A model generated the notes under the pieces. The model saw nothing but the letters and a program-made list of their open reading frames with translations, searched no databases and had not been told where the DNA came from. DNA of 64,000 nt, taken from assembly GCA_018676675.1 (NCBI GenBank), contig JABHEG010000121.1, positions 1 through 64,000 of the forward strand, given 5' to 3'. The position numbers and the translations under genes are program-made. This DNA comes from Lentisphaerota bacterium (GTDB lineage Bacteria > Verrucomicrobiota > Lentisphaeria > Oligosphaerales > JABHEG01). This document shows, one piece after another, positions 62,196-62,615 of the stretch (its first letter is position 1; the number at the start of each line of letters is the position of its first letter).

Positions 62196-62246
62196 CGGAA
62201 TCATAATCCGAGTGTCCGGGGTTCGAGTCCCTGAGCCGCTACCATT
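62196..62246 (+). repeat. attR-type direct repeat (tRNA 3' part)
   Basis: 51/51 identity with 39309-39359. Confidence 0.93.
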
Positions 62247-62287
62247 TTTCTCTTCTCACAGTGAGTGCCTTTCAGGGGGAAAGGCGG

Positions 62288-62602
62288 ATGACCACACTGT
62301 ATGTCCTTCGAGACCCCGACTCCGGCATGCGCTATGTCGGGATCACGAACGACCTATCCCGTCGCCTCCGCGAACACCGCAAGAAGCAGTCGGTCGGATC
62401 TCGTCGGCTCGGGAACGCCGAACTGGTACACACTGAGGAATTCCCGGACTACACGACGGCTCGCAAGCGAGAGAAGCAACTCAAGTCCGGAGCAGGCCAC
62501 CGTTGGCTTACTGCATTCCTGGCTGAAGGCACATCGTGTCCGTGTCCTGCCGTTCGGCAGGATGAAGTTCGAGCTTGGCCTGCCGAACGGCAGACTCCCT
62601 GA
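62288..62602 (+). CDS. GIY-YIG nuclease family protein (small)
   Basis: MTTLYVLRDPDSGMRYVGITNDLSRRLREHRKKQS...FPDYTTARKREKQLKSGAGHRWL; C-terminal about 25 codons and the stop lie in tRNA-like/palindromic sequence. Confidence 0.9.
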   Translation: MTTLYVLRDPDSGMRYVGITNDLSRRLREHRKKQSVGSRRLGNAELVHTEEFPDYTTARKREKQLKSGAGHRWLTAFLAEGTSCPCPAVRQDEVRAWPAERQTP

Positions 62603-62615
62603 GCCGCTACCATTT
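62545..62615 (+). repeat. tRNA 3' fragment interrupted by two palindromic inserts
   Basis: TCCTGCCGTTCGGCAGGATGAA (62545-62566), GTTCGAG (62567-62573), CTTGGCCTGCCGAACGGCAGAC (62574-62595), TCCCTGAGCCGCTACCA (62596-62612). Same layout as 39183-39244. Confidence 0.92.

Follow-up and report, generated by a model that had tools for sequence, protein, structure and literature searches.

We analysed a window of 64,000 nucleotides from the Lentisphaerota bacterium assembly GCA_018676675.1 (contig JABHEG010000121.1, positions 1 to 64,000 of the forward strand), an assembly with a listed contamination of 8%. An intact tRNA-Met(CAT) gene lies at 39281-39357 on the plus strand (ARAGORN; Rfam tRNA, 66.3 bits) and is the sole full copy of its sequence in the genome, where the remaining matches are Lys and Arg tRNAs. 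Upstream of this gene, a pseudo-tRNA-Met (39094-39244, plus strand; fold z-score -4.1) was recognized from its sequence. Its D-loop GTTAGAG (39134-39140) and T-loop GTTCGAG (39205-39211) are each flanked by hairpins on both sides, and a 4-base deletion takes out its anticodon. An integrase island of 22.9 kb separates the tRNA-Met from a GIY-YIG nuclease cassette. This island is bounded by a 51-bp exact direct repeat on the plus strand (attL, 39309-39359; attR, 62196-62246) and has a tyrosine integrase gene at its right end, outside the cassette (60689-62119, minus strand; Pfam Phage_integrase, 52.4 bits). The island attR is the source of the tRNA 3' end GTTCGAGTCCCTGAGCCGCTACCATTT (62221-62247) found just upstream of the GIY-YIG gene. 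Reading the translations by eye, we also noticed in the island an apparent type I restriction-modification set (HsdR-, HsdS-, and HsdM-like ORFs, 48085-55448) and a RhuM-like ORF (51203-52225).

The GIY-YIG gene itself spans 62288-62602 on the plus strand (Pfam GIY-YIG, 49.8 bits; cut-off, 22.6). It starts at ATG 62288 and stops at TGA 62600-62602, encoding 104 aa rather than the 105 counted previously; a GTG at 62261 would make a protein of 113 aa. As an earlier note on this DNA had described, the ORF sits between the tRNA-Met 3' end and another 3' end that two hairpins interrupt, and its stop codon falls within the tRNA-derived TCCCTGAGCC; our reading of the sequence confirmed both points. 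The order that the note had deduced for the locus with the island removed is likewise borne out by the 51-bp att repeats, and runs from the hairpin-broken pseudo-tRNA through the intact tRNA-Met, about 40 bp of spacer, and the GIY-YIG gene to the hairpin-broken 3' end. The GIY-YIG gene is the only content of the cassette, as the neighboring integrase belongs to a separate island with att sites of its own.

The element that splits the second 3' end is a palindromic module (62545-62595, plus strand; fold z-score -3.7), recognized from its sequence and from the same module in relatives. It consists of hairpin A (62545-62566), the T-loop GTTCGAG (62567-62573), and hairpin B (62574-62595), after which the T-arm resumes in the displaced tRNA-Met 3' end TCCCTGAGCCGCTACCA (62596-62612, plus strand), a sequence counted three times against 0.22 expected by chance (up to 3 mismatches). 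The two hairpin cores are mutual reverse complements, as previously claimed, and are able to form one long stem. The palindrome core gave 7 strand-matches against 1.2 expected, a value that no shuffle reached. Exact hairpin A arms occur three times in the 14.1-Mb genome, always within tRNA-Met copies at this locus (those inside the pseudo-tRNA are at 39113 and 39184), and are absent from 288 other genomes of the phylum. In the 17 genomes searched for the full-arm module, we counted 0-2 copies per genome and 14 in total, with at least one in 11 genomes; the module is therefore no dispersed repeat family. On these copy numbers, we rejected a REPIN-like genome-wide palindrome as the main account. 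An alignment of 16 modules (A4) comprises three helices with pairing in 100% of cells, which is abolished by sliding the partners, and 5 pairs have changed on both sides against 1.8 in shuffles. In one row of this alignment (L117x), the last ten bases were filled in to hold the column register and are not genuine; of these, the counted pairs use the first T alone (column 60), paired with G44 as in the other rows. An Rfam search matched no family to the hairpin module.

The Pfam score, catalytic residues, and predicted fold all place the protein in the GIY-YIG superfamily. Its conserved part, approximately residues 1-80, is a bare GIY-YIG domain, and the C-terminal tail is partly translated from the hairpin module. 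Y5, Y16, G18, R26, H30, and E62 are invariant in an alignment of 24 sequences (A5). The AlphaFold model has a core pLDDT of about 90, with residues 31-40 at 78 and the tail (83-99) below 50, and the predicted fold matches UPF0213, Slx1, and I-TevI. A separate DNA-binding domain of the I-TevI kind is absent, which leaves the small catalytic domain or its tail to supply any sequence specificity. Where dN/dS could be computed for genes of the family, it was about 0.05-0.3, indicating that these genes are under selection for function.

The same setting recurs elsewhere in this genome. A first protein search returned five GIY-YIG matches including the window gene, all of which lie at tRNA-Met, -Gln, -Leu, or -Pro genes or at tmRNA; a profile search added a sixth and weaker match (L039), which has no tRNA nearby. 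Hairpin-broken tRNA copies are found again at the Gln and Leu loci, and palindromes flank the gene on both sides at the Pro and tmRNA loci. Across 48 genomes of the order, GIY-YIG presence is patchy (15 of 48 genomes), and 20 of 28 matches have a tRNA or tmRNA on the same strand within 400 bp. A class-wide survey repeated the pattern, with some subfamilies confined to a single isotype, such as four loci at tRNA-His and four at tRNA-Asn.

Among 100 genes outside the neighboring GFT clade, each flanked by 400 bp or more on either side, a set that includes UvrC and a few GFT-like sequences missed by the motif and in which the window gene scored negative owing to its island, 67 had a tRNA on the same strand within 400 bp (52 upstream and 15 downstream), and none had one on the opposite strand. 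No tRNA was found within 400 bp of any of 21 genes of the GFT clade (Bradyrhizobium and others) or of any of 30 integrases used as a control. The earlier note had proposed surveying small GIY-YIG genes of related genomes for adjacent tRNAs and the palindromic motif, and in our survey both the tRNA fragments and the palindromes accompany relatives of the window gene, so that the refuting outcome named in the note did not occur. At 19 of 55 loci, the 3' end of the tRNA concerned was copied downstream (at least 20 of 25 nt), compared with 2 of 2694 comparisons with other isotypes; some family members carry no such copy.

Scanning 84,980 species genomes with the clade of the window gene, we obtained 80 loci. 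The members of this clade itself stem from records labelled Verrucomicrobia, Lentisphaerae, Kiritimatiellaeota, Desulfobacteraceae/Deltaproteobacteria, Neomarinimicrobiota, Cloacimonadota, Zixiibacteriota, Hydrogenedentota, and Bacteroidetes, and the genomes are nearly all metagenome-assembled, with many contigs terminating at the cassette. At nearly all loci of this clade, the gene and a hairpin module stand between the end of a tRNA or tmRNA and a further tRNA 3' end, and this arrangement occurs at many tRNA isotypes. We also observed that metagenome contigs often end in or beside cassettes (L016, L019, L028, L030, L031, L033, L038, and L102), so their number is probably underestimated in short-read assemblies. 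On a tree of 139 proteins, built on few columns and with many open forks, tRNA association required 17 changes against 39.1 when shuffled, and isotype required 41 against 55.3; neither observed value was reached in 1000 shuffles. These counts indicate that the tRNA habit is inherited by clade, while isotype is partly inherited and often switched, and 41 changes among 76 genes make isotype specificity loose. A phage or plasmid gene was rejected as an account of the clade, whose consensus matched just 2 of 50,697 phage records and 1 plasmid record. A viral scan with the single window protein gave no match, and 1 of 7 relatives on viral contigs had a tRNA alongside.

The junctions of the window gene's clade are well defined. 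In 22 of 31 loci, the cassette is flanked by an exact direct repeat of 14 bp or more, compared with 40 of 840 in a null that paired flanks of different loci, some of them of the same isotype. The typical repeat runs from T-loop base T54 (TTCRANTCC) through CCA, about 23 bp, and the base before the T-loop is G in the intact gene and a hairpin-derived A in the displaced copy. The window locus, L117, and L086 represent a variant with TTCGA at the module center. Other breakpoints occur as well: a hairpin replaces the anticodon arm in L026, L029, L147, and L153, and also in L109 of the window gene's clade, and L114 breaks in the anticodon loop, where the exact repeat, as we read it, spans about 46 bp.

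Other subfamilies have quite different hairpins in the same tRNA setting. A second GIY-YIG subfamily, with the KSGSGHAFAKRH motif (L027, L032, L018, L020, L021, L033, and L038), adjoins the CCA of tRNAs or tmRNA; its palindromes read CCAKCCTTCGC...GCTACGGMTGG, there is no downstream tRNA 3' copy, and the subfamily probably represents a related element whose junction differs. In a third subfamily (SGQLYVGATTDL; L015, L017, and L035), repeats of the form TTTCGACGCG...CCCTGAGC...TCGAAGGG lie beside tRNA-Asn and tRNA-Gln, and we take them to resemble a dispersed repeat that is common in environmental genomes. Beside a tRNA-Ala cassette, we saw an IS200-like Y1 transposase gene (Pfam Y1_Tnp; L020:975-1547). 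In the Verrucomicrobia locus L083, a tyrosine integrase (Pfam; 1170-2366, minus strand) is followed by a bare tRNA 3' end and then by a GIY-YIG cassette downstream, which is the layout of the window, as if integrase islands also used cassette-bearing tRNAs.

Comparisons between related genomes bear on mobility. Within one genus, G306 and G307 have a tmRNA with palindromes and a GIY-YIG gene (the G307 contig ends at the gene start), and in G309 only a terminator-like hairpin follows a tmRNA that is 95% identical. G306 and G307 diverge from G309 exactly after CCA, with a right flank that is not comparable. In these same-genus comparisons, an exact two-sided empty site was not found; the polymorphism is one-sided and belongs to a GIY-YIG subfamily other than that of the window gene. 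Comparison of G180 with G247 and G315 yielded no comparable flank, and an empty-site comparison of G083 with G264 and G305 was swamped by unrelated dispersed repeats. A separate repeat family was seen in this material, as the stretch upstream of the L022 tRNA pair (reverse-complement about 690-1022) has dozens of copies in G083 and G305. Tandem cassettes occur at one tRNA in L030, L050, L069, and L147. Judged from the sequences, the switching of isotypes within one clade and the spread of the clade over phyla point to movement of the cassette.

We consider it probable that the window cassette belongs to a large family of selfish elements that are minimal, free of introns, and of the homing type, and that have their seat in tRNA and tmRNA genes. 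Cassettes of this family measure about 0.4-0.6 kb and hold one gene, whose protein of about 80-105 aa contains little beyond the GIY-YIG catalytic domain. We infer that the nuclease would cut the DNA of tRNA genes that lack the element, within or close to the T-arm sequence GTTCRANTC, and that homologous recombination would repair the break from an element-bearing allele, copying the cassette in, as in homing. The cassette sits with a complete tRNA gene upstream and, downstream, a 3' copy that the hairpin module interrupts at the first base of the T-loop; the rebuilt tRNA would keep the host alive. The hairpins, in turn, may keep the displaced copy from being re-cut, from serving as a tRNA, or from removing the cassette by recombination. 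Since the intact upstream tRNA retains its T-loop, self-avoidance would need another factor, such as flanking sequence. The occurrence of hairpins in D-loops and anticodon arms counts against an account based on homing into the T-arm, as do the loose isotype specificity, the lack of a two-sided empty site in our comparisons, and the members whose tRNA lies downstream (15 of 67) or that carry no 3' copy. The compact tRNA-targeting module proposed in the earlier note is strongly supported by the same-strand association across phyla, its dependence on clade, and the hairpin module at the T-loop. We differ from the note on the palindrome, which looks like a mark on a displaced, disarmed copy rather than a sequence that the nuclease needs.

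A serious rival, though in our judgment an unlikely one, is that a structure-selective GIY-YIG enzyme like Slx1 cuts branched or cruciform DNA formed by the palindromes, with the module as a REPIN-like transposing or amplifying unit and tRNA genes as a safe harbor. The predicted fold would suit it, being equally close to Slx1 (6seh) and I-TevI, as would a symmetric, hairpin-rich module whose cores in the window can join into one stem. Modules flank both sides of T- and D-loops in several pseudo-tRNAs, and the Y1 transposase gene adjoining cassette L020 could also be read in its favor. However, the full-arm module stays at its low copy number, the other subfamilies keep the tRNA setting despite their different hairpins, and the Y1 transposase is found at one locus only. 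Alternatively, the gene could be a passenger of ordinary tRNA-targeting integrases, left behind with att fragments by islands or satellites. The integrase island within this very tRNA and the similar layout of L083 fit such an origin, but we regard it as improbable: most cassettes have no adjacent integrase, repeats of about 23 bp starting from T54 and joined to a conserved structured module are not plain att copies, and the window island sits between the tRNA and the cassette with a 51-bp att of its own.

We weighed two further readings. The gene could be a domesticated host GIY-YIG in fixed operons, co-transcribed with tRNAs for repair or tRNA-related work, next to broken copies that arose by ordinary tandem duplication. 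We find this quite improbable, because strong purifying selection and a same-strand arrangement with spacers that are very short in places, which it would explain, stand against patchy presence in the order, one clade at many isotypes and in many phyla, variable presence within a genus, cassettes in tandem at a single tRNA, and displaced 3' ends that begin at one defined base. The reading to which we give the least credence, and consider very improbable, is an immobile nuclease-immunity pair in which a hairpin-tRNA transcript acts on tRNA or on the mRNA of the nuclease to regulate or protect. Conservation of the module structure with paired changes and, in several members, the overlap of the module with the gene's 3' end speak for it. 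Symmetric DNA palindromes would covary equally well, though, the module has no Rfam family, and to our knowledge GIY-YIG enzymes of known activity act on DNA.

Beyond the window, we tentatively put forward, as a real possibility, that cassettes of this kind, by means of the GIY-YIG catalytic domain alone, can enter the T-arm of almost any tRNA or tmRNA gene by homing, rebuild the tRNA, and immunize the displaced copy with a self-folding hairpin module, forming a widespread and undescribed class. If so, tRNA genes would be colonized, and pseudo-tRNAs formed, by a route that needs neither intron nor integrase. Small single-domain GIY-YIG genes, a large set that now bears a family name only, would gain a function, the hairpin-broken pseudo-tRNAs found near tRNA genes would be explained, and homing of the SegB type, known from the tRNA arrays of phages, would extend to the chromosomes of bacteria from many phyla. 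The hypothesis also bears on why mobile DNA prefers tRNA genes as a home.

Several known systems share parts of this arrangement. Islands and phages that use tyrosine integrases also take a tRNA gene as their seat, leaving one tRNA intact and a 3' copy at the far end, but the cassette has one small nuclease gene in place of an integrase, and its far copy is interrupted at T54 by the module. By both sequence and fold, the closest solved relatives are the UPF0213 proteins (1zg2 and 1ywl), single-domain GIY-YIG proteins of the same size that are uncharacterized; single-domain relatives of the GFT type are those for which we recorded no tRNA association. Group I intron homing endonucleases of the I-TevI type have the GIY-YIG fold, and some group I introns lie in tRNA genes. 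The cassette, in contrast, has neither a group I intron nor their DNA-binding domain, and the tRNA is duplicated instead of being interrupted by a spliced sequence; a group I intron was rejected, as Rfam found none in the window or in 20 loci. With REPIN/RAYT systems, the cassettes share paired inverted hairpins and short conserved flanking bases (AAGC/GCTT), but their hairpins are low-copy and a GIY-YIG gene stands in place of the Y1 transposase.

SegB of phages T4 and T6, a free-standing GIY-YIG homing endonuclease encoded beside a tRNA array (PMC13096335), is the only biochemically studied relative in habit that we found, and it establishes that such an enzyme can be tied to tRNA genes in phage. 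Its SITE-seq motif RAWTSGAAC, derived from 23 of 83 sites, enhances cutting and is not strictly required, and its peaks fall within tRNA genes (PMC13096335). RAWTSGAAC is the reverse complement of GTTCSAWTY and matches the T-loop sequence of tRNAs; reading the SegB motif as a tRNA T-loop is our own suggestion from this match. It is there that the displaced copy is broken in the cassettes. With SegB as the analogue, the intact tRNA gene is the likely target of the cassette nuclease, a second point on which we differ from the earlier note. A literature search of papers available without subscription returned no published account of tRNA-linked GIY-YIG cassettes in bacterial chromosomes, and the chromosomal, single-gene, tRNA-seated family with a T-loop hairpin module in many phyla appears to be new. 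The GIY-YIG gene of the window is free-standing as well, lying outside any intron or intein and beside an intact tRNA, as the SegB gene lies beside tRNA genes with neither intron nor intein. Unlike SegB, a phage protein encoded in a tRNA array, the cassette family is chromosomal and sits at single tRNA genes of many isotypes, and the hairpin module and the displaced tRNA 3' copy belong to the cassettes.
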